NCBI RefSeq assembly: GCF_001579845.1 | Contig: NZ_CP007440.1 | Coordinates: forward strand, 5,230,029-5,294,028 | Source of the DNA: Rhodoplanes sp. Z2-YC6860 | Lineage (GTDB): Bacteria > Pseudomonadota > Alphaproteobacteria > Rhizobiales > Xanthobacteraceae | Direction of reading: 5' to 3' | Length of the DNA stretch: 64,000 bases | In this document: piece after piece, positions 3,797 to 42,619 of the stretch | Numbering within the stretch: the first letter of the stretch is position 1 | Layout: each line of letters starts with the position of its first letter | Notes under the pieces: model-generated | What the model saw: the letters and a program-made list of their open reading frames with translations, nothing else | Databases searched by the model: none | Told to the model about the DNA's origin: nothing | Translations under genes and position numbers: made by a program

Positions 3797-4993
3797 ATGC
3801 AAACGCGGCAAGGCTGTTCGGACAAATCGATGCCGAAGCCTCTCATCCATTCGTGTCTGGCCCTTTGGGCGCTGCTCGCGTTTGCCGCCGCGGCAAACGC
3901 CCAGCCGCAGGCGCCCGCGCTGATATCGACCGATGAGCAGGGCTGCGCGGGCGTCAACACTGCGCCGGCCGATGCGGTGCAGGCCTGCACCGCGCTGGTC
4001 GGCAGCGGCCGCTACGCCGGCAACAATCTCGCCATCGTCTATTTCAACCGCGGCATCGCCTATGGACGGCTCGGCGACTACGACCGCGCCATCGGCGAAT
4101 TCGATGCGGCGGTGCGCCTCAATCCGACCTACACGCGCGCCTACAGCAGCCGCGGCAGCGCGCTGCTGCTCACCGGAAACTTCGACCGCGCGATTGCGAG
4201 CTTCGATCAGGCCATCCGGCTCGACCCGAATTCCGCGACGAGCTTTGCCGGCCGCGGCAGCGCCTATCGGTCCAAAGGTGATGCCGACCGCGCCATCGCC
4301 GATTTCAGCCAGGCGCTGCGGCTCAATCCCGGCGACGCCGCTTCTTACACCGAGCGCGGCATCGCATCGGCCGACAAGGGCGATCACGACCGCGCCATCG
4401 CCGACTACGAGGCGGCGCTCAAGATCGACTCGAATTACAGCCTCGCCTATCTCAACCGCGGCATATCGTGGAACGCCAAGAAAGAGTCCGACAAGGCGCT
4501 CGCCGATTTCGACACCGCGATCCGCCTGACGCCTGAGAGCGGCGCGGCCTACGGCAGTCGTGGCGTCGCGCTCGAAGCCAAGGGCGAGACCGAGCGCGCC
4601 ATCGCCGATCTCGACAAAGCCATCGCGCTCGACCCGCGCAATGCCGGCTACCTTCAGAGCCGAGGCAATGCCTGGCGCAACCACGGCCGGCTCGACAAAG
4701 CGCTCGCCGACTACAACCAGGCGCTGACGCTCGCGCCGAAAAACTGGCTCACATATTACTACCGCGCCCAGGTGCAGTACGTGGCGGGGAACTTCCGCGA
4801 GGCTCTCGCCGACGCCACCAGGACCGCCGAACTCAACGCCAACTGGGCACCCGCCTTGAGCCTGCGTGGGCTCATCCAGGAAAAGCTTGGCGCAAAGGAC
4901 GCAGCCATCGCCGATTTACGGCGTGCGGCAGCCCTCGATCCGGCCCTGCCGCAGCCCGCCGACGCGCTCCGGCGCATGGGAATTTTGCGTTAA
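3797..4993 (+). CDS. Secreted tetratricopeptide-repeat protein (first of three)
   Basis: 398 residues with a signal-peptide-like segment (SCLALWALLAFAAAANAQ), then a short Cys-containing region (GCAGVN...VQACTALV), then about nine or ten 34-residue TPR units. Repeat consensus is clear: DYDRAIGEFDAAVRLNPTY, DADRAIADFSQALRLNPGD and so on. TPR arrays are protein-binding scaffolds and this one should be periplasmic. An in-frame ATG at 3830 would give a more usual signal peptide and may be the true start. It forms a same-strand trio with paralogues at 5068 and 6108. Partner unknown. Confidence 0.85.
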   Translation: MQTRQGCSDKSMPKPLIHSCLALWALLAFAAAANAQPQAPALISTDEQGCAGVNTAPADAVQACTALVGSGRYAGNNLAIVYFNRGIAYGRLGDYDRAIGEFDAAVRLNPTYTRAYSSRGSALLLTGNFDRAIASFDQAIRLDPNSATSFAGRGSAYRSKGDADRAIADFSQALRLNPGDAASYTERGIASADKGDHDRAIADYEAALKIDSNYSLAYLNRGISWNAKKESDKALADFDTAIRLTPESGAAYGSRGVALEAKGETERAIADLDKAIALDPRNAGYLQSRGNAWRNHGRLDKALADYNQALTLAPKNWLTYYYRAQVQYVAGNFREALADATRTAELNANWAPALSLRGLIQEKLGAKDAAIADLRRAAALDPALPQPADALRRMGILR

Positions 4994-5067
4994 CTCCAAT
5001 GGCTTAGACCGGCCTGAACCCCGCTGGGCGCATTTGCGACCAATTGGCATTGAGGGAGCTTAGGGCT

Positions 5068-6111
5068 GTGCGCAAGCTATTGCCGTTGATCGTGGCTTTG
5101 CTCGCCACCTGTAAAGCGTCCGCAAAACCCTGGGACAACCGCTGCGGCAATCCCGACGCAGGCCTGCCCAATTGGATCGCCGGCTGCTCGGCAATGATCG
5201 ACAGTGGCGACTACCGCGGGCGCGAACTGTCCACGGCCTATGCGCAGCGCGGTCACGCCCTCACGTTGACCCGCGATCTGCCGCGCGCGGCCGACGATCT
5301 CGACCGCGCAGTCGAGACCGATCCGAGCAACGTGACGGCCCTCGTCAACCGTGCGAACTTTTTCAACGTCGCGCACAAGCCCGAGCGGGCCCTCTCCGAC
5401 GCAAAGCGCGCACTGGAACTCGATTCAACCCTGCCGCTGGCCTATTTCGTGCGCGCGGCCGCGGCTGCGCAGCTGAACGACGTTGACGGAGCAATCGCCG
5501 ACTACAGCGCTGTGATCAAGATGCGGCCCAATTTCGCGCAAACTTATGGCCTGCGCGGCATGCTCTATCACAAGAAAGGCGACGAGGATCGCGCCATCGC
5601 CGATTACAATGACCGGCTCAGCCGTGAGTCCGACGTCGGCACACTGCTCAGCCGCGGCGACGCGCGCCGCAACAAGAAGGATTACGAAGGCGCTGGTGCC
5701 GATTATTCCGAAGCCATCCGTCTCGCGCCGAAGAATGCCGGCGGCTATAAAGGTCGCTGCTTCATCCGCCTGGTGTCCCAGGACTTCAAGGGCGCGATCG
5801 AGGACTGCGACACGGCGATCAACCTTGAGCCCAATGAGGCCGGTCTCTATATCAACCGCGGCAGCGCGCTATCGATGCTCGGCGAGCGGCAACGTGCGCT
5901 CTCCGATTATGACACTGCGATCGCGCTCGAGCCCAGGCATCCGATCAACCATGTCAGCCGCGCGATGGTGCTGAGCGAAATGGGCGATCGCGCCGGCGCG
6001 ATCGCAAGCCTGCGCAAGGCTCTGGCTCTGGTGCCCGGGTTCCCGCCGGCGCTGGAACAGCTGGAGAAGATCCAAAAAGAGAACATGGCCAAGAAGCAAA
6101 CCAGCCGATGA
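5068..6111 (+). CDS. Secreted tetratricopeptide-repeat protein (second of three)
   Basis: 347 residues. The frame is open upstream to 5044, but I chose the GTG at 5068. It has a GGGAG ribosome site 9-10 bases before it and gives a clean signal peptide, MRKLLPLIVALLATCKASAKP. The mature start carries the Cys-containing region also seen in its neighbours (RCGNPDAG...IAGCSAMIDSG), then about eight TPR units such as DVDGAIADYSAVIKMRPNF. Its stop overlaps the start of the third TPR gene (ATGA), so these two are translationally coupled. Role inferred only as a periplasmic scaffold. Confidence 0.85.
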   Translation: MRKLLPLIVALLATCKASAKPWDNRCGNPDAGLPNWIAGCSAMIDSGDYRGRELSTAYAQRGHALTLTRDLPRAADDLDRAVETDPSNVTALVNRANFFNVAHKPERALSDAKRALELDSTLPLAYFVRAAAAAQLNDVDGAIADYSAVIKMRPNFAQTYGLRGMLYHKKGDEDRAIADYNDRLSRESDVGTLLSRGDARRNKKDYEGAGADYSEAIRLAPKNAGGYKGRCFIRLVSQDFKGAIEDCDTAINLEPNEAGLYINRGSALSMLGERQRALSDYDTAIALEPRHPINHVSRAMVLSEMGDRAGAIASLRKALALVPGFPPALEQLEKIQKENMAKKQTSR

Positions 6112-7058
6112 AACCGTCCATGATCCGCACTTCGCTCATTGTCGCCGCGCTTCTCGCCGCCTCCCCGGTGGCCGCTCAGGAGGCCATGACGCCGGGCGCG
6201 CCGGCCGAGGCCTGCAAGGCGCCCAATGTCACGGTCAACGCACGGATCGCGGGCTGCAGCAAGATCATCGACGAGAAGAAGGAAACCGGCCGCGCGCTCG
6301 CGGTTGCCTACTGCAATCGCGGTTTCGCGCTGACCGAACAGCGCGAGTTCGATCGCGCGATGACGGATCTCAATGACGCGATCAAGATCGATCCGAGCTA
6401 CGCCTGCTCGTTCAGCAACCGTGGCCGCGTCTACGCGTTCAAGAACGATCTCGAAAAAGCCATCGCGGACTACGATCACGCCATCAAGCTCGATCCAAAA
6501 TTCGCCATCGCCTACAACAACCGCGGCGACGCGATGATGCGGCGCGGCGAACTCGACAAGGCGATCGCAGATTTCACCACCGCGATCAAACTCGATCCGG
6601 TAAGCGTGCACGCCTACGGCAATCGCGGCTGGGCCTATCAGCGCAAGCGCGACAACCAGAAGGCGCTCGCCGACTACACGAAAGCGATCGAGCTCGAGCC
6701 GAAAGATCTACTCGGCTACATCAACCGCGGCAACATCTATCGCGTCATGGGCAATCTCGACCGTGCCGCCGCCGACTATGGCGAGGCCATTCGCGTGGCG
6801 CCGACCGACGCACGCGGCTGGCGCAATCGCGGCATGATCAAGCTGATGAAATACGACAACGCCGGCGGCATCGCGGACTACGACAAGGCGCTCGAATACG
6901 ATCCGAAGGACGCCTATTCCTGGAACAACCGCGGCATCGCCAAGCGTGACACCGGCGACAAGGCCGGCGCCATCGCCGATCTCAAGAAGGCGCTGGAGAT
7001 CAATCCGGACATGCCGTCGACGCGGCAGTCGCTGGAAGAGCTTGGCGTGAAGCCTTAG
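6108..7058 (+). CDS. Secreted tetratricopeptide-repeat protein (third of three)
   Basis: 316 residues: signal peptide MIRTSLIVAALLAASPVAAQ, a two-Cys region (EACKAPNV...IAGCSKIID), then about seven TPR units with very regular spacing (DLEKAIADYDHAIKLDPKF, ELDKAIADFTTAIKLDPVS). The start overlaps the stop of the preceding TPR gene by 4 bases. The last 59 bases overlap the 3' end of the convergent DNA glycosylase gene, so both C-termini are encoded on opposite strands of the same DNA. The three TPR genes look like a tandem duplication that has since diverged. Confidence 0.87.
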   Translation: MKPSMIRTSLIVAALLAASPVAAQEAMTPGAPAEACKAPNVTVNARIAGCSKIIDEKKETGRALAVAYCNRGFALTEQREFDRAMTDLNDAIKIDPSYACSFSNRGRVYAFKNDLEKAIADYDHAIKLDPKFAIAYNNRGDAMMRRGELDKAIADFTTAIKLDPVSVHAYGNRGWAYQRKRDNQKALADYTKAIELEPKDLLGYINRGNIYRVMGNLDRAAADYGEAIRVAPTDARGWRNRGMIKLMKYDNAGGIADYDKALEYDPKDAYSWNNRGIAKRDTGDKAGAIADLKKALEINPDMPSTRQSLEELGVKP

Positions 7059-35819: not shown

Positions 35820-38189
35820 ATGGAACGAAAGCCTCGGGCCGAAGGTGGCCCCTATATCGGCCGGCCGATGCCGCGCTTCGAAGACCTGCGTCTGGTGCGC
35901 GGCGCGGGCAAATATTCCGATGACATTTCGATGACCGGTCAGGCCTATGCGGCCTTCGTGCGCACGCCCCACGCGCATGCGGTTGTGAAGCGGGTCGATG
36001 TTGCCGCGGCGCAAAAGATGCCGGGCGTGATCGCGGTGCTGACCGGCGCGGACTATATCGCCGATGGGCTCAAGGGCGCCTTGCAGCGCGCCAATCCGGC
36101 CGGCGCGATCGACATCAAGGTGCGCGCCTTTGACCCGGCGAAGCGGCCGGTGCTGGAGGAAGAACAGTATCCGCTGGTCGCCGATCGCGTGCGCTATCCG
36201 GGCGAAGCGGTCGCGATGGTGATCGCCGAGACACGGCTTGCGGCGCGCGATGCGGCCGAAGCCGTCCAGGTGGAATACGAAGTCCTGCCGGCCGCAACCG
36301 ATGTGCGCAAGGCGCAACGCTCGGAACCGATCTGGCCGGACGCCTGCCCCGACAATGTGGCACTCGACGAGACGTTCGGCGACGTCGATGCGGTGCGCGC
36401 CGCGTTCGACGCAGCCGACCTCGTGGTCGAGCAGACCTTCGTCAACCAGCGCATCGCCAACTGCCAGATGGAGCCGCGCTCCGGCGTCGGCTCGTACGAT
36501 GCAGTGACCGATTCCTACACGCTGATCTCCGGCAACCAGGGCGTCCATGCGCCGCGCATGGTGCTCGCCGAAAGCTGGGGCCTGCCGCTCGACAAAATTC
36601 GTTTCATCTGTCCGGATGTCGGCGGCGGCTTCGGACTGCGCAACAATCTCTACCCTGAGCAGACCTCGATCCTGTGGGCCGCGAAGCGCGTCGGCCGGCC
36701 GGTGAAATGGACCAACGACCGCTCGGAATCGTTCCTCACCGATTATGCGGGCCGCGATCTGGTGACGACCGCGAGCCTCGCCTTCACCAAGGACGGCCGC
36801 ATCACCGCCTACCGGGTCGATCACATCGGCACCTGCGGCGGGCAGACCGTGACCTACGTGCCGCTATCGAACGCCTACCGCGTTGCGACCACGGTCTACG
36901 ACATCCCGCTGATGCACATGCGCTGCCGCTCGATGATGACCAACACGGTGCCGACCGCGCCGTTTCGCGGCGCCGGCAGGCCCGAGGCGACCTTGGTGCT
37001 GGAACGGCTGATCGACATGGCGGCCGAGCGGCTCGGCATGGACCGGCTTCGCATCCGGCAGGTGAATGTCATCCCGAAAAAGAAGCTGCCGTATCGCACC
37101 GCGAGCGGCTTGCTCTACGACAGCGGCGACTTCGCCAACAACATGAAGCGGATGATCGAGGTCTCCGACTGGAAGGGCTTTACCGCGCGCAAGCGGGAGT
37201 CGAAGAAGCGCGGCAAGCTCCGCGGCATCGGCATCTCGAACTACCTCGAGACCCCGGTCGGCATTCCGCACGAACGCGTCGAGGTCACGGTGCTGCCCAC
37301 CGGCAAGGTCCAGCTCGCGGTCGGCACGCAATCGACCGGCCAGGGCCACGAGACGAGCTTCGCGCAGGTGATGGCCGATCTGCTCGGTGTGCGTCCCGAG
37401 GACATTCTTTTCGTCTGCGGCGATACTTCGAAGATTCCCTCGGGCAGCGGCACGCATTCGGATCGCTCGATGCGGCTCGGCGGCACGCTGATGTTCCAGG
37501 CAAGCGAGGACGTGGTGGCGCAGGCCAAGGCCGCGTCGGCAGCAATTCTCGGCGTGCCGGAGAGCGACGTGTCCTTCAGTGACGGTCTGTTTGCCGCCCC
37601 GAACAGCAACCGGCGCCTGACGATCTTCGACGTCGCGCAGGCCGTGAGCGAGAACTCGAGCCTCAACGGCGGCAAGCCGCTGGAGTCGAAGAAAACCTTC
37701 ACCGGCCGCATCCCGGCCTACCCGACCGGCTGCGCGATCTGCGAGGTCGAGATCGACCCGGATACGGGAGCAGTGAACATCCCGCGCTACGGCTCGATCG
37801 ACGACGCGGGCCAGGCGATCAATCCGCTCATCCTGCACGGTCAGGTGCATGGCGGCATCGTGCAGGGCGTCGGCCAGGCGCTGGTCGAGAATGTGCAATA
37901 TGACGAGCAGGGCCAGGTGCTAACCGGAAGCTTCATGGACTACGGCGTCCCACGCGCGCACATGGTTCCCTCCTTCGACATCGCGTTGACCGAGGACCCG
38001 ACCAAGGGCAATCCGCTGCGCGTCAAAGGCGGCGGCGAAGCCGGCATCACGCCGGCGCTCGCGGTGGTGATGAACGCGATCATGGATGCGCTGAAGGAAC
38101 TCGGCGTCGAGCACATCGACATGCCGGCGACGCCCGCGCGCATCTGGGGCGCAATCCAAGAAGGCAGAGCTGCACGAAGGCCTGCTTGA
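35820..38189 (+). CDS. Molybdenum hydroxylase large subunit (xanthine dehydrogenase / CoxL-like form II), second lone subunit
   Basis: 789 residues from ATG 35820; the frame is open back to 32964 but only this part is protein-like. It starts GGPYIGRPMPRFEDLRLVRGAGKYSDDI, the alpha/beta hammerhead domain. The active-site loop is APFRGAGR (380-387, form II), the glycine-rich loop is CPDVGGGFGLRN, and catalytic Glu740 is in KGGGEAGITPAL. It parallels the protein at 10314 end to end (shared PRFxxGTGxxx-like and GSFMDYGVPRA segments). FeS and FAD partner genes are absent. Divergent from UbiD and 70 bases before a Rieske oxygenase gene. Confidence 0.9.
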   Translation: MERKPRAEGGPYIGRPMPRFEDLRLVRGAGKYSDDISMTGQAYAAFVRTPHAHAVVKRVDVAAAQKMPGVIAVLTGADYIADGLKGALQRANPAGAIDIKVRAFDPAKRPVLEEEQYPLVADRVRYPGEAVAMVIAETRLAARDAAEAVQVEYEVLPAATDVRKAQRSEPIWPDACPDNVALDETFGDVDAVRAAFDAADLVVEQTFVNQRIANCQMEPRSGVGSYDAVTDSYTLISGNQGVHAPRMVLAESWGLPLDKIRFICPDVGGGFGLRNNLYPEQTSILWAAKRVGRPVKWTNDRSESFLTDYAGRDLVTTASLAFTKDGRITAYRVDHIGTCGGQTVTYVPLSNAYRVATTVYDIPLMHMRCRSMMTNTVPTAPFRGAGRPEATLVLERLIDMAAERLGMDRLRIRQVNVIPKKKLPYRTASGLLYDSGDFANNMKRMIEVSDWKGFTARKRESKKRGKLRGIGISNYLETPVGIPHERVEVTVLPTGKVQLAVGTQSTGQGHETSFAQVMADLLGVRPEDILFVCGDTSKIPSGSGTHSDRSMRLGGTLMFQASEDVVAQAKAASAAILGVPESDVSFSDGLFAAPNSNRRLTIFDVAQAVSENSSLNGGKPLESKKTFTGRIPAYPTGCAICEVEIDPDTGAVNIPRYGSIDDAGQAINPLILHGQVHGGIVQGVGQALVENVQYDEQGQVLTGSFMDYGVPRAHMVPSFDIALTEDPTKGNPLRVKGGGEAGITPALAVVMNAIMDALKELGVEHIDMPATPARIWGAIQEGRAARRPA

Positions 38190-38259
38190 CCCAGGCCGAA
38201 GCTCGGTTCGATAATTCCTCCGCCAATCGCTGCTTGCACGCAAAGGCGGAGGACGCGCG

Positions 38260-39360
38260 ATGAACATCCAGCTCGGTCACGAGGCGCTGGTCCATAGCAA
38301 GAAGCAGCTCGCCAGCGGCACCTATCTGCACAACGCCTGGTACGTCGCCGCCTGGTCGCAGGACATCGCGCCTGGAAAATTGCTCGGCATCACCATCCTC
38401 AAGGAGCCGGTGGTCATCTATCGCATGGCGGATGGAAAGCTTGCCGCGCTCGAAGATCGTTGCGCGCATCGCTTCGCCCCGCTCAGCATGGGAGCGATTG
38501 TCGGCGGCGACAAAATCCAGTGCCCCTACCATGGGCTCGAATACGATACGTCGGGAATGTGCACGCTCAATCCGCACGGCAACAAGCACATTCCGCCGCG
38601 TGCGCGTGTGCGCAGCTATCCGGTGACGGAGAAGCACAAGGCGATCTGGATCTGGATGGGCGACAAGCCCGCCGACCATTCCAAAATCCCCGACTTCGGC
38701 GTGATGGACAACCAGCCGGAGCTTCACACCACCAAGCTCGACAAGATCATGGTGAAAGCCAACTACGAGCTGGTGATCGACAACCTCCTCGACCTCTCGC
38801 ACACCTCGTATCTGCATGCCGGCATCCTCGGCAATCAGGACACCGTCGAATCCGAGATCAATGTCGACCAGGACGGCGAGGACATCGTCGTCTCGCGCTA
38901 CGCCCGTGCCGGCGAGCCACCGGGTATGAACAAGCTGATGTGGCCGGACGTACCCTCGAAGGTGGACAAGTTCACCCGCATCCGCTGGATGGCGCCTTCG
39001 ACCCTGCGTCTGGTCACCGGCGTCTGCCGCCCCGGCGAGACGCCGGAACAGGGTTCCGGCTATCACGCCATCCACCTGCTCACGCCGGAGAACGACGGGA
39101 GCACCCACTACTGGTTCACGGCGGTGCGGTTCGGGGTGTTCTCCAAGGGCGACGAACTCAACCGGCAGATCCAGGAGAAGGTCGCGGCGACGCGCCGTTT
39201 CGCCTTCGAGGAGCAGGACGCCCCGGTGATCGAGGCCCAGCAGCGCATCATCGATAATTCGCAGACGGCGGTGGACCCGCTGATCCTGGCTATCGACGTG
39301 GGCCCGGTGCGCTACAAGCAGGTGCTGAAACGGCTAATTGCAGCGGAACAAGCGCCTTAA
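38260..39360 (+). CDS. Rieske [2Fe-2S] oxygenase, VanA-like (aromatic O-demethylase/monooxygenase type)
   Basis: 366 residues; GGCGGAGGA precedes the ATG at 38260. Rieske ligands Cys68-His70 (RCAHRFAP) and Cys88-His91 (CPYHGLEYD). The mononuclear iron site has His181 and His186 in NLLDLSHTSYLHAG. The start LHNAWYVAAWSQDIAPGKLLGI is the usual start of the vanillate O-demethylase/phthalate oxygenase-type single-component alpha subunits. The needed reductase is not next to it; the reductase at 25105 or another elsewhere could serve. Same strand as and 70 bases after the molybdenum hydroxylase gene. Confidence 0.92.
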   Translation: MNIQLGHEALVHSKKQLASGTYLHNAWYVAAWSQDIAPGKLLGITILKEPVVIYRMADGKLAALEDRCAHRFAPLSMGAIVGGDKIQCPYHGLEYDTSGMCTLNPHGNKHIPPRARVRSYPVTEKHKAIWIWMGDKPADHSKIPDFGVMDNQPELHTTKLDKIMVKANYELVIDNLLDLSHTSYLHAGILGNQDTVESEINVDQDGEDIVVSRYARAGEPPGMNKLMWPDVPSKVDKFTRIRWMAPSTLRLVTGVCRPGETPEQGSGYHAIHLLTPENDGSTHYWFTAVRFGVFSKGDELNRQIQEKVAATRRFAFEEQDAPVIEAQQRIIDNSQTAVDPLILAIDVGPVRYKQVLKRLIAAEQAP

Positions 39361-39454
39361 AACGAACCAAAAGCCGTCAAAAAACGTTGAAAAGCCAGCG
39401 GCCGCACTGGAATGCCGCCGAATAAACCATTAGTTTCCCGGTTTCTTCAACGCC

Positions 39455-40777
39455 ATGCAGGATCGAAACGTGGACGCCCCAACGGCCGGACACCCCAAAG
39501 CCCTTTCCCTCGGCGCGCTCGTGACCGAAGGAAAGACCAAGAAAATATTCCGCATCAACGGCTCGGACCTCGTCGCGGTTGTCGCCAAAGACGACATCAC
39601 CGCGGGCGACGGCGCCAAGCACGACGTCATTCCCGACAAGGGACGGCTCGCCACGGCGACGACCTGCAACGTGTTCCGCCTGCTCAAAGCCTGCGGCATT
39701 GCGGTGGCGTTCGAGGAGCAGAACAGCGCGACCTCGTTCATCGCCCCGCCCTGCACCATGCTGCCCTACGAGGTGGTGGTGCGCCGCGAGGCCCACGGCT
39801 CGGCGCTCAAGCGCAGCCCGCATTTCAGCAAGGGACAGCTGTTCCCGAAGCTGCTCGTCGAGTTCTACCTCAAAACCAAGGACAAGGACTGGAAGGGCAA
39901 GAAGCTGGTCGCCGACGACCCGTTCATGGAGTACGAGGACGGCGCCGCGCAGATCAAGCTGTTCAATCCGGCGAAGCCCATTCTCGGCTCCGAGCCGTTC
40001 CTGGTGCTCGACACCGCGGACGTGTTCAGCCAGCCGAACGAATACAAGTTCTTCCCGCAGATGCGGGCCATCGCGCGCCAGGCCTTCCTGGTGCTGGAGC
40101 GCGCCTGGGCGCTCGAAGGCGGCCGCCTCGTCGACTACAAGGTCGAGTTCGGCTTCGACGCCAAGGGCAATCTCCTGCTCGCCGACGTGATCGACAACGA
40201 TTCGTGGCGGGTGATCGAGAACGGCGCCTACATCGACAAGCAGGTCTATCGTGACGGCGGCGCGCTCGACACGGTCGCGGCCAAGTACAAGCAGGTCGCC
40301 GACACCACCGGCCACTTCCGCGTACCGGCCCAGCGCATCATCCTGTGGCGCGGCTCCGAGACCGACAAGACGGAGGCCTTTGCCGACGCGCTCGGCCCGC
40401 TGAAGGACATGATGACCATCGTGACCTGCTCCATCCACAAGGAGCCGATCGCGGGCTCGAACATTCTCAACCGCCTGATCCAGGAGGTCCCCGACACCGT
40501 GGTGATCGCCAACATCGGGCGGTCGAACGGCGCGGGCCCCGTGCTGTCGGCGATGTCGACCGTGCCGGTGATCACGGTGCCGGCCAGCGCCAAGGACTTC
40601 CCCGAGGACGTCTGGTCGTCGCTCCGCGCGCCGAGCAAGGTCCCGGTGATGACCGTGATGGAGCCGGCCAACGCGGTGCTCGCGACTTTACAGATTCTCT
40701 CTGCCCGCAACCCGCGGATTTATGCGCACCTGCGCACCGAGATCGAGAGCCGCACGGTCAACGTCCTGACCCTCTGA
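39455..40777 (+). CDS. Bifunctional SAICAR synthetase / class II AIR carboxylase (PurC-PurE fusion, animal PAICS-like)
   Basis: 440 residues. Residues about 20-285 are SAICAR synthetase (PurC): LVTEGKTKKIFRI, ATTCNVFRLLKACGIAVAF, VVRREAHGSALKR, and LLADVIDNDSWRV. Residues about 293-440 are an AIR carboxylase (PurE): ILWRGSETD, SIHKEP, IGRSNGAGPVLSA, and DVWSSLRAPSKVPVMTVMEP. The GRSNGxGP, SSLR and PANA segments match animal PAICS and class II PurE from Treponema, not class I PurE. Class II enzymes carboxylate AIR with CO2 directly, without PurK. GTG 39470 has a better-placed SD (AGGA) than ATG 39455. A terminator follows at 40801. Confidence 0.88.
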   Translation: MQDRNVDAPTAGHPKALSLGALVTEGKTKKIFRINGSDLVAVVAKDDITAGDGAKHDVIPDKGRLATATTCNVFRLLKACGIAVAFEEQNSATSFIAPPCTMLPYEVVVRREAHGSALKRSPHFSKGQLFPKLLVEFYLKTKDKDWKGKKLVADDPFMEYEDGAAQIKLFNPAKPILGSEPFLVLDTADVFSQPNEYKFFPQMRAIARQAFLVLERAWALEGGRLVDYKVEFGFDAKGNLLLADVIDNDSWRVIENGAYIDKQVYRDGGALDTVAAKYKQVADTTGHFRVPAQRIILWRGSETDKTEAFADALGPLKDMMTIVTCSIHKEPIAGSNILNRLIQEVPDTVVIANIGRSNGAGPVLSAMSTVPVITVPASAKDFPEDVWSSLRAPSKVPVMTVMEPANAVLATLQILSARNPRIYAHLRTEIESRTVNVLTL

Positions 40778-40800
40778 TCCGGCAGCGGGTTCCGTCTGCC

Positions 40801-40838
40801 CAAATCCCCGCCCCTTCATGGCGGGGATTTGCATTTTT
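40801..40838 (+). terminator. Terminator of the PurC-PurE fusion gene
   Basis: A perfect 12-base stem CAAATCCCCGCC / GGCGGGGATTTG with a 7-base loop (40801-40831), followed by CATTTTT, starting 23 bases after the stop. Confidence 0.85.
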
Positions 40839-40933
40839 ATGGCAGCATCGTGGAACTATGGAACCGGGTGCGGCGTTACAGGTCCGGAATTCTCACACTG
40901 CAATAGCCCGCTGACATGGTCAGGGAGGACCGA

Positions 40934-41176
40934 ATGTCTTTCCGGAATGCGCTCCTCGCTTGCGTCTGTCTTGCCGCCTTCGTGCCGGCCGTTTCGGCCT
41001 CGGCCGAGGAAGGCCTCAAGGTGAAGGCGTCCGACAAGGCCGCCTGCATGCCCGATGCGATCAGGCTCTGCCGCGACGCGATCCCCAACGTCCGCAACGT
41101 GCTGACCTGCTTCAGCCAGAAGCGCGAAAAGATCAGCGCCCGCTGCAACACGGTGCTCGCAAGCTACGGGCTCTAA
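40934..41176 (+). CDS. Small secreted cysteine-rich protein
   Basis: 80 residues from ATG 40934 with GGGAGG upstream; the frame opens 18 bases earlier without a better start. Signal peptide: MSFRNALLACVCLAAFVPAVSASA. The mature 55 residues carry four cysteines in a pattern CMPDAIRLC...VLTCFSQKREKISARC, which resembles the cysteine-rich (Golgi FGFR-binding/GLG1-like) repeat of many small rhizobial secreted proteins. Function unknown. The four cysteines would form two disulfides in the periplasm. Confidence 0.75.
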   Translation: MSFRNALLACVCLAAFVPAVSASAEEGLKVKASDKAACMPDAIRLCRDAIPNVRNVLTCFSQKREKISARCNTVLASYGL

Positions 41177-41218
41177 GCCAACTCAGCCAAAGGACGGTGT
41201 CTGTTGAGCACCAGAGTC

Positions 41219-41836
41219 TCAGGTGGGACGCTTGCGCACTGCCACCTGATGGCTCTTGTCGATGACTTCGGCCTCGGGATGCCACGCAAGGAAGATGTCC
41301 ACCGCAGGAGCGACGCGTTCCGCGTCGGGGTTGTTCGGCATCCAGGTGTAGTCATCCATCAACATCACGCCGCCATCGCGGAGCAGGCGCCAGGCACCAA
41401 GACAATCGATCATGACGTCATCGCGACGATGACTGCCGTCGACATAAATGAAATCGAAGACCGCCTTTTCCTCGCGCAGAATGCCAAGTGACTTGATCGA
41501 GGTGCCGGCGAGCTTTCGAACGCGCGCGCCGTAGCCGGCAAGGTTGCGGTCGAAGCGCTCGGTCCAGTCCCCGCTGAAGAGATCGACGCAGGTGATATGC
41601 GCTCCGGCGAAGAACTCGAGCCAGAATACGGCAGACCGCCCCTCGTGAGAACCGATCTCGAGCACCCGGCTGGTCGTATCGCGGATGTCCTCAAACAGCA
41701 TCCTCCAGGAAATCGTGCGGGCACCCACCCAGTCGTGCCGAAAGTCCTTGCCCGCAAAGACGTCAGCGTCTCTGGCCTGCGCCAGCGCGACAACCCTCGC
41801 ACGAAGCTGCATCATTCGGTCAAAAGAATCGGCCAT
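41219..41836 (-). CDS. Class I SAM-dependent methyltransferase
   Basis: 205 residues. Methyltransferase domain (Methyltransf_24-like) with SAM motif I VLEIGSHEGRSAVFWLEFF, the acidic end of beta-2 ITCVDLFSGDW, FDFIYVDGSHRRDDVMID (motif III) and LLRDGGVMLMDDY. The pattern VDGSHxxxxVxxDxxxxxxxLxxGGxxxxDDY is typical of cephalosporin hydroxylase/O-methyltransferase-like members. Target unknown. It is preceded by a P460-like gene (divergence of function is likely; same strand, 61 bases). Confidence 0.85.
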   Translation of the reverse strand: MADSFDRMMQLRARVVALAQARDADVFAGKDFRHDWVGARTISWRMLFEDIRDTTSRVLEIGSHEGRSAVFWLEFFAGAHITCVDLFSGDWTERFDRNLAGYGARVRKLAGTSIKSLGILREEKAVFDFIYVDGSHRRDDVMIDCLGAWRLLRDGGVMLMDDYTWMPNNPDAERVAPAVDIFLAWHPEAEVIDKSHQVAVRKRPT

Positions 41837-41897
41837 AGGAAACTCGGATTTTATCGACGTCTACGCAGCACCGCAGACGATCGAGTGAGCGATCCAT

Positions 41898-42449
41898 TCA
41901 CCTCCTCGGATAGGCCGTGAAAATGTAGTCCTTGGTTGCCACCTTCGAATGGCATTCGAAGCCGCACTTGTGGCCCTCGACGCTGGGCTTGAGCGTATCG
42001 GTGGCGGCGTCGTTCTCGAACTGGGCGTAGGCCCATCCCTTCGTATCCGGGAAGCGTTTGGTGTTCTTCTCGATGAACGAGAGCGATTTCAGCGTGTCCG
42101 GCACGTTCACGAAATAAGGGGATTCCTCGCTCTTCTTGAACATCCATTCGATCTTGGCGATCTTGGCGCCGTCAGGGAAACCCTTGCCGTTGCCGGGAAC
42201 GCCGCTCCGGTAGGCCTTGATCATCGCGGGATTGGCGAGAATGGCCTTGAGACCATGCTCGGTCTGGCTGACCGCGACGGTTTCCCAGTGTTCGTAGCCC
42301 TTGAACTCGGAGAACGAGAGCCCGTTCGGCACTTTCAAACCGCTTCTGTTTTGCGCGGCAAGAGCCAGTCCGCCCGCAACAACCAGCGGCACCAAGCTCA
42401 TGGCCACCGCCCAGGTGAATTTCGTTTTCAATCCATTGATACTCGACAT
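41898..42449 (-). CDS. Cytochrome P460-family protein with CX3CH heme motif
   Basis: 183 residues with a membrane/signal segment (FTWAVAMSLVPLVVAGGLALA). The body GLSFSEFKGYEHWETVAVSQTEH and FPDTKGWAYAQFE are typical of P460 family proteins. The C-terminus has KCGFECHSKVATKDYIFTAY, the heme-attachment region; here three residues separate the cysteines (C-G-F-E-C-H) instead of the two of the standard CXXCH. P460 proteins act on hydroxylamine or small N compounds, or have peroxidase-like roles; which applies is unknown. Just upstream is the remnant of an outer-membrane barrel gene. Confidence 0.78.
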   Translation of the reverse strand: MSSINGLKTKFTWAVAMSLVPLVVAGGLALAAQNRSGLKVPNGLSFSEFKGYEHWETVAVSQTEHGLKAILANPAMIKAYRSGVPGNGKGFPDGAKIAKIEWMFKKSEESPYFVNVPDTLKSLSFIEKNTKRFPDTKGWAYAQFENDAATDTLKPSVEGHKCGFECHSKVATKDYIFTAYPRR

Positions 42450-42619
42450 GATCCAGACTCCATGTCAGAGGCCGAGCGCCTTACCGGCCTCGTTTCAATA
42501 ATTTTGCACCGGCAAGCTAATCAGCAAATCGGAGCAAGCGAAATAGGTGGACAGTCCATTTCGCTCGCGATTTGGGCTCTCCTGGATTTCTCCAGGATTC
42601 ACGCGATCCGGCGCAACCA

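Follow-up and report, generated by a model that had tools for sequence, protein, structure and literature searches.

An apparently sole AIR carboxylase of PAICS type, fused to SAICAR synthetase in a bacterium

PurK and class I PurE form the usual bacterial route from AIR to CAIR. In a 64,000-nucleotide stretch of the Rhodoplanes sp. Z2-YC6860 genome (hereafter the window), we found a single gene for a SAICAR synthetase (PurC) joined to a class II-type AIR carboxylase (PurE). Sequence comparisons suggest that its product is a real PAICS-type enzyme and, apparently, the sole AIR carboxylase of this bacterium. We consider it very probable that the fusion is a bifunctional, PAICS-like, CO2-using enzyme that displaced PurE and PurK and provides the only AIR-to-CAIR route found in the genome. 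A bacterial clade seems to use a PAICS-type enzyme in place of PurK and class I PurE, a natural experiment on PurK becoming dispensable that also bears on the origin of animal PAICS.

The fusion gene and its two halves

The gene occupies positions 39455–40777 (forward strand, 440 aa, stop codon included) as one uninterrupted open reading frame with an ATG start, and was identified by its domains and by its PDB sequence and fold matches. Pfam hmmscan found SAICAR_synt (147.5 bits; cut-off 20) in two stretches, of which residues 23–144 scored better, and AIRC (60.5 bits; cut-off 30) at residues 301–430. Both domains therefore lie above cut-off in one frame, as the sequence-only reading of this DNA had proposed, and the AIRC match speaks against a C-terminal half of some other, non-AIR-carboxylase kind. 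The PurC half spans 39521–40312 (forward strand, approximately residues 23–286), as judged by SAICAR_synt and aligned site residues. The class II-type PurE half spans 40337–40765 (forward strand, approximately residues 295–437), as judged by Pfam AIRC, a TIGR01162 match below cut-off, S326, H328, K329, and GRSNG at residues 355–359. The NCBIfam model TIGR01162 (purE, N5-CAIR mutase) gave the fusion 59.9 bits over residues 295–437, below its cut-off of 149.6, and TIGR00081 (purC) gave 98.9 bits, below its cut-off of 189.9, though Pfam SAICAR_synt was well above its own. Because the NCBI purE and purC models both score the fusion below cut-off, metabolic models that seek purE and purK alone would call such genomes purine auxotrophs.

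That a sequencing error joined two genes is unlikely because the fusions of eight relatives are 71–91% identical to this one and 64 full-length fusions from a genome-contig scan align with it (judged from 8 of those 64 loci, the two sets partly share genomes). The GC content of the gene (0.63–0.65) fell inside the range of its flanks (0.59–0.67), and a foreign composition was rejected. A terminator-like hairpin with a T run (40801–40831, forward strand; 12 pairs, 8 of them G-C) begins 24 bases past the stop codon; it is weak evidence because the region holds two terminator-like sites against a mean of 1.8 in shuffles. No promoter-like site was found in the searched region around the fusion, and no tandem repeats at 38000–42500.

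The best two PDB sequence matches were both PAICS, from Bombyx mori (4ja0, 7.4e-56) and human (2h31, 4e-50). An AlphaFold2 monomer model built from 40 aligned relatives reached a mean pLDDT of 90 and a pTM of 0.90, and the six top Foldseek matches to the PDB with this model were all PAICS chains (TM 0.61–0.72), with an identity of only ~30% across the model. Aligning the fusion with human PAICS, with the human site list as given in an excerpt of PMC9376930, mapped the PurC site to G26, K27, T28, K29, A50, G51, E106, V108, K229, E231, D244, D249, S250, K262 and R266, and the PurE site to G300, S301, D304, S326, H328, K329, G355, R356, S357, N358 and G359. Alignment and conservation indicated that the active-site residues of PAICS are kept in both halves; non-catalytic site positions differed at human Ala302 and Ala329, which are I327 and I354 in the fusion. 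We assessed conservation across 65 full-length fusions (the window's and 64 of the best 80 of 98 loci found in a genome-contig scan; the 16 loci dropped had partial, broken or PurC-only frames). K27, K29, E106, K229, E231, D244, S250, R252, K262 and R266 were invariant; H328, K329, S326 and D304 were each conserved in 64 of 65; and R356 was present in 47, with Met there in 16. By the sequence and fold tests made, the fusion would work like PAICS. The PurE half would convert AIR and CO2 directly to CAIR with neither ATP nor PurK, His328 acting as the putative general base; CAIR may pass between the two sites, and the PurC half would then convert CAIR, aspartate and ATP to SAICAR.

The class of the PurE half was read from its residues. 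GRSNGAGP (355–362) and DVWSSLR (385–391), the motifs singled out in the sequence-only reading, are both present. Where two class I PurE proteins from the same family read S-A-H-R, G-G-A-A-H and S-I-V-Q, the fusion reads S-I-H-K (Lys replacing Arg), G-R-S-N-G and S-S-L-R, respectively; both class I proteins also carry an insert of four residues ahead of the N-A pair, which the fusion lacks. B. mori PAICS, and T. denticola PurE where visible, resemble the fusion at the class II positions, with SSLS in B. mori. The fusion half therefore has the class II pattern of HK, GRSN, SSLR and no four-residue insert. In a 41-row AIRC tree whose root was imposed on class I, the fusion halves grouped with PAICS and T. 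denticola PurE, apart from the three class I rows. The class II-type AIR carboxylase assignment, and with it the PAICS-like layout that had been proposed, is supported by sequence, profile matches, residues and fold alike.

A different possibility is that the PurE half is a class I-like N5-CAIR mutase, with N5-CAIR formed non-enzymatically or by an unrecognised PurK substitute. An excerpt of PMC3261824 offers precedents: PurK is absent from many archaea that have a class I-like PurE, and over-expression of E. coli PurE compensates for a purK deletion. One carrier genome (G082) also encodes a PurK-like protein of full length that scores 153.8 bits, below the PurK cut-off of 318.4. The residue pattern and the tree, however, both side with class II, and we regard a mutase as improbable. 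The low Pfam AIRC score (60 bits) and a long AIRC branch from PAICS (2.33 changes per column) do count against the CO2-using PAICS-like enzyme that we favor.

Purine genes in the genome and in its relatives

The window's genome is assembled as one contig (8,193,889 bases) with a completeness rating of 100%. A PF00731 search returned one AIRC domain, the fusion itself, and TIGR01162 at E up to 10 returned the fusion and four weak places of 9–14 bits; with these two models, no class I PurE over cut-off was found in the 8.19-Mb genome. PurK over its cut-off was likewise absent from this genome, the single match being a 43-bit place in a 688-aa frame that, judged by its length, is perhaps a biotin-carboxylase-type protein. 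All 14 control genomes gave matches, which were over cut-off in 14 (PF00731), 13 (TIGR01162) and 11 (PurK). A separate purC (~296 aa) sits in a region holding purQ and purL, and purH is also present; the purine pathway therefore looks live, and the fusion would fill its AIR-to-CAIR gap. The sequence-only reading had offered a second, transferred copy or the sole route. Its suggested search for separate purC, purE and purK, which returned purC and no class I PurE or PurK over cut-off, bears out both by half: the fusion is the sole AIRC-family protein found in the genome, yet it is a second PurC.

We also observed that two open reading frames separate purC from purQ and interrupt the purine cluster (L055, G000:C1:5503000-5517000, positions 4907–6641). 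From reading alone, we take them to be a maleate-isomerase-type protein and a Tct-type binding protein.

Among 61 genomes, the window's own included, the fusion was found in 11, the copy of G009 being incomplete because its contig ends there. Class I PurE and PurK over cut-off were both missing in eight of the 11; G007 had the fusion with both, and G009 and G029 had it together with class I PurE, PurK reaching cut-off in neither. PurK over cut-off was present in 46 of the 50 fusion-free genomes (Fisher p 1.1e-7, kinship ignored).

The position of the missing pair could be followed through rpsU. Of six loci examined in fusion-free members of the family, four (L148, L151, L152 and L153) have rpsU next to purK-purE; for the other two, L149 and L150, the comparison did not show it as a neighbor. 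In G036 (L152), the genes run TPR gene, rpsU, purK, purE, small ORF. The window's genome (G000, L157) preserves this sequence for the TPR gene, rpsU and the small ORF; rpsU and the small ORF are ~480 bp apart, and neither purE nor purK was matched above chance at this site. G029, which belongs to another genus and also carries the fusion, has an intact class I purE at the corresponding site, where purK is cut to its last ~66 residues, the stump lying between rpsU and purE (L056, G029:C272, positions 2362–2559). G029 is an apparent halfway genome, with fusion, purE and purK stump. We suggest an order of events in which the fusion was gained, purK then decayed and purE was lost, with the separate purC retained; the class I pair would have gone from its family site beside rpsU, replaced by the fusion.

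Other relatives fit less simply. The purE/purK pair of G007 lies on a 10-kb contig with no rpsU neighbor, and the purE of G009 adjoins the same small ORF as the purE of G036 does, and purK is not next to it; these class I genes may be bin contamination or real. Same-genus G005 (79% complete) gave no AIRC match, which counts against the displacement that we propose.

Two further genomes, G026 (100% complete) and G047 (98%), gave no AIRC-family match and no PurK over cut-off. In G021, a 381-aa frame carries tandem AIRC domains (L057, G021:C51:174000-186000; 183.5 and 62.7 bits), and an ordinary class I purE lies elsewhere in that genome. The tandem frame resembles the purE-purE' genes of Methanobacteria (PMC3261824).

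Distribution and gene neighborhood across bacteria

The genome-contig scan gave 98 confirmed stretches, and our analysis used the best 80. Carriers among these 80 were, as labelled in their records, Xanthobacteraceae, other Hyphomicrobiales, Faunimonas, Verrucomicrobia and many Patescibacteria, together with one Rhabdochlamydia MAG, Armatimonadetes and one Micrarchaeota MAG; some of the 80 loci matched the PurC half only. We searched the genomes behind 50 of these loci, 49 of which have an AIRC-bearing fusion, counting as class I PurE any AIRC match of at least 150 bits outside the fusion (our own threshold). Of the 49, 44 gave no class I PurE and no PurK reaching cut-off, and PurK over cut-off was missing in the window's genome and in 45 of the 49 further carriers. 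PurC outside the fusion was not found in 33 of 50, and the PurC half of the fusion is therefore the only candidate there; none of separate PurC, class I PurE and PurK was found in 31 of 50. Single absences are weak because many carrier genomes are MAGs with no completeness given. Twelve carrier genomes had an extra AIRC match of 34–88 bits, mostly in frames of 229–359 aa, which we presume to be LarB-like and did not count as class I.

Class I PurE coexists with the fusion in some carriers, which counts against the proposed displacement. Full-length fusions occur alongside class I PurE and PurK at L077, L080, L083 and L110, and alongside class I PurE alone at L085; in the genome of L118, which has class I PurE and PurK, the AIRC half has been lost and the open frame is 312 aa. 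Two of the five fusions beside class I PurE were changed at the nine site positions checked: L110 has Gln in place of the catalytic His, and L080 has D304E plus S301T and S357A. This trend fits a relaxed constraint, in small numbers. Site changes also occurred in 5 of 44 fusions without class I PurE (L089, L109, L116, L117 and L120), another count against the proposal.

An even draw of 145 genomes from the Patescibacteria phylum (that of G096/L092) yielded AIRC matches (E <= 0.001) in 22. Only two of these, G096 (the draw's center) and G172, had a window-type frame, with a low-scoring AIRC and 440–460 aa; the other matches were mostly in shorter frames at 108–215 bits. The window-type fusion looks rare and patchy in Patescibacteria.

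Three observations concern individual or mobile carriers. In Micrarchaeota (L129, 5971–7240), PurC and a class II-type PurE are two ORFs in one frame with a single stop codon between them, the pair being either unfused or split there. On a contig titled Kaiserbacteria (L079, MFLU01000010.1), the fusion shares 68% identity with that of the window and sits next to alphaproteobacterial fusions in the trees of both halves, distant from most Patescibacteria rows; its placement reflects a recent transfer or a mis-binned contig. Carriage by viruses was rejected, as the viral matches were limited to parts of the PurC half: a viral-contig scan gave eight loci, seven of them (26–30% identity) within residues 22–286 only and L147 (43%) covering only residues 23–81. 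Carriage by plasmids was rejected as well, with none of 17 plasmid records covering 80% of the query and the ten matches listed falling within residues 17–295.

In the window, a Rieske/VanA-type oxygenase and a molybdopterin dehydrogenase lie upstream of the fusion, and the oxygenase adjoins it in four of nine relatives' loci examined (L043, L044, L045 and L047). The earlier description of a gene outside a pur operon and with catabolic neighbors holds for this window; some other lineages have purine genes nearby. Probed against the best 80 of 98 loci, the PurL and PurQ of the window's genome were found near the fusion in two (both at L126, PurL at L097). Pfam annotation, which covered chosen neighbors only, placed an AIRS_C (PurM-like) protein, a 1306-aa PurL-type protein and a formyltransferase beside the fusion of Faunimonas pinastri (L097, 5968–13126), Lyase_1 (PurB-type) and PurH beside that of Vogelbacteria (L092), and Lyase_1 beside that of Nomurabacteria (L130). 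The Faunimonas fusion and its purine neighbors are perhaps a transferable purine module; its genome also has a separate purC.

These neighborhoods bear on a further alternative, in which a paralogous fusion protein serves some other function, for instance alongside the catabolic genes, and purines come from salvage or an unrecognised CAIR route. The catabolic neighbors and the retained separate purC point that way, and the lack of purine genes around the fusion in the window counts against our proposal. On this reading, however, one step would be missing from a purine pathway for which purC, purQ, purL and purH were found. The fusion is moreover kept in relatives without catabolic neighbors, elsewhere it lies near purine genes and is the sole PurC found in some lineages, and the site residues of both halves are conserved. 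We judge this reading slightly less probable even than the mutase, and retain the PAICS-like enzyme as by far the better account.

Origin of the fusion and comparison with known systems

In a 79-row tree of PurC halves, one clade of 67 (SH-aLRT 99) left B. mori PAICS outside; it comprised 64 full window-type fusions and the PurC-only L118, L123 and L128. Patescibacteria lie at its base and also among other rows, and Verrucomicrobiota and Pseudomonadota show three label changes each, of which the starred branches force only one. In the AIRC tree, 34 fusion halves fell together (99). B. mori PAICS, a partial sequence and the one animal row in both trees, paired with the Armatimonadetes fusion L126 (SH-aLRT 91 for PurC, 80 for AIRC), and in neither tree did the window fusion group with animal PAICS. 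The window-type fusion is, by these sequences, a bacterial clade apart from moth PAICS.

Recent acquisition of an animal PAICS gene by bacteria would explain the shared domain order and the animal PAICS as best PDB matches. It is nevertheless unlikely because the clades of both halves exclude the moth protein, albeit a single partial animal row; identity to PAICS is only ~30%, and GC resembles the surroundings. We give this origin next to no credence.

L126 (MAG contig VGFD01000039.1, 5989–7263) is a PurC-PurE fusion near purQ and purL. It matched B. mori PAICS 4ja0 at 384 bits over the whole length, against 193 for the window fusion. With L126 near and the window fusion far from animal PAICS, bacterial PurC-PurE(II) fusions thus come in at least two kinds, and the animal gene may have a bacterial relative in L126. 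A broader scenario would have a deep bacterial PAICS lineage, rooted in Patescibacteria, that reached Verrucomicrobia and Alphaproteobacteria and displaced PurE/PurK in both, with the animal fusion derived from an L126-like bacterial one. We hold it only tentatively, and think it rather doubtful, because the window type is rare and patchy in Patescibacteria; if true, the 'animal' PAICS solution would be bacterial in origin.

We found no description of a bacterial PurC-PurE fusion in the open-licence literature searched. An excerpt of PMC4177761 calls AIR carboxylase almost exclusively eukaryotic, and one of PMC3261824 describes fused PurCE as common in eukaryotes and class II PurE without PurK in Archaeoglobus. 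Class I PurE with PurK carries out the same AIR-to-CAIR step as proposed for the fusion, but with two genes, ATP and bicarbonate (PMC3261824). Stand-alone class II PurE of T. denticola (3rg8/3rgg) shares GRSN, D-[IV]-[WY]-SSLR and EP-NA with the fusion, and 3rgg is a fold match; it is, however, unfused to PurC and gave only 27 bits to the AIRC half (phmmer). L126 is also a PurC-PurE(II) fusion in a bacterium, yet far closer to animal PAICS than the window's is. PAICS is an octamer with the PurE half at its core, and the fusion is known here as a monomer model. Overall, the fusion has the PurC-PurE(II) order, site residues and overall fold of animal PAICS (human 2h31/6yb8, B. mori 4ja0), but is bacterial, ~30% identical and in a separate clade, with a PurC half that we estimate from the alignment to be ~20 residues longer between residues 144 and 200.
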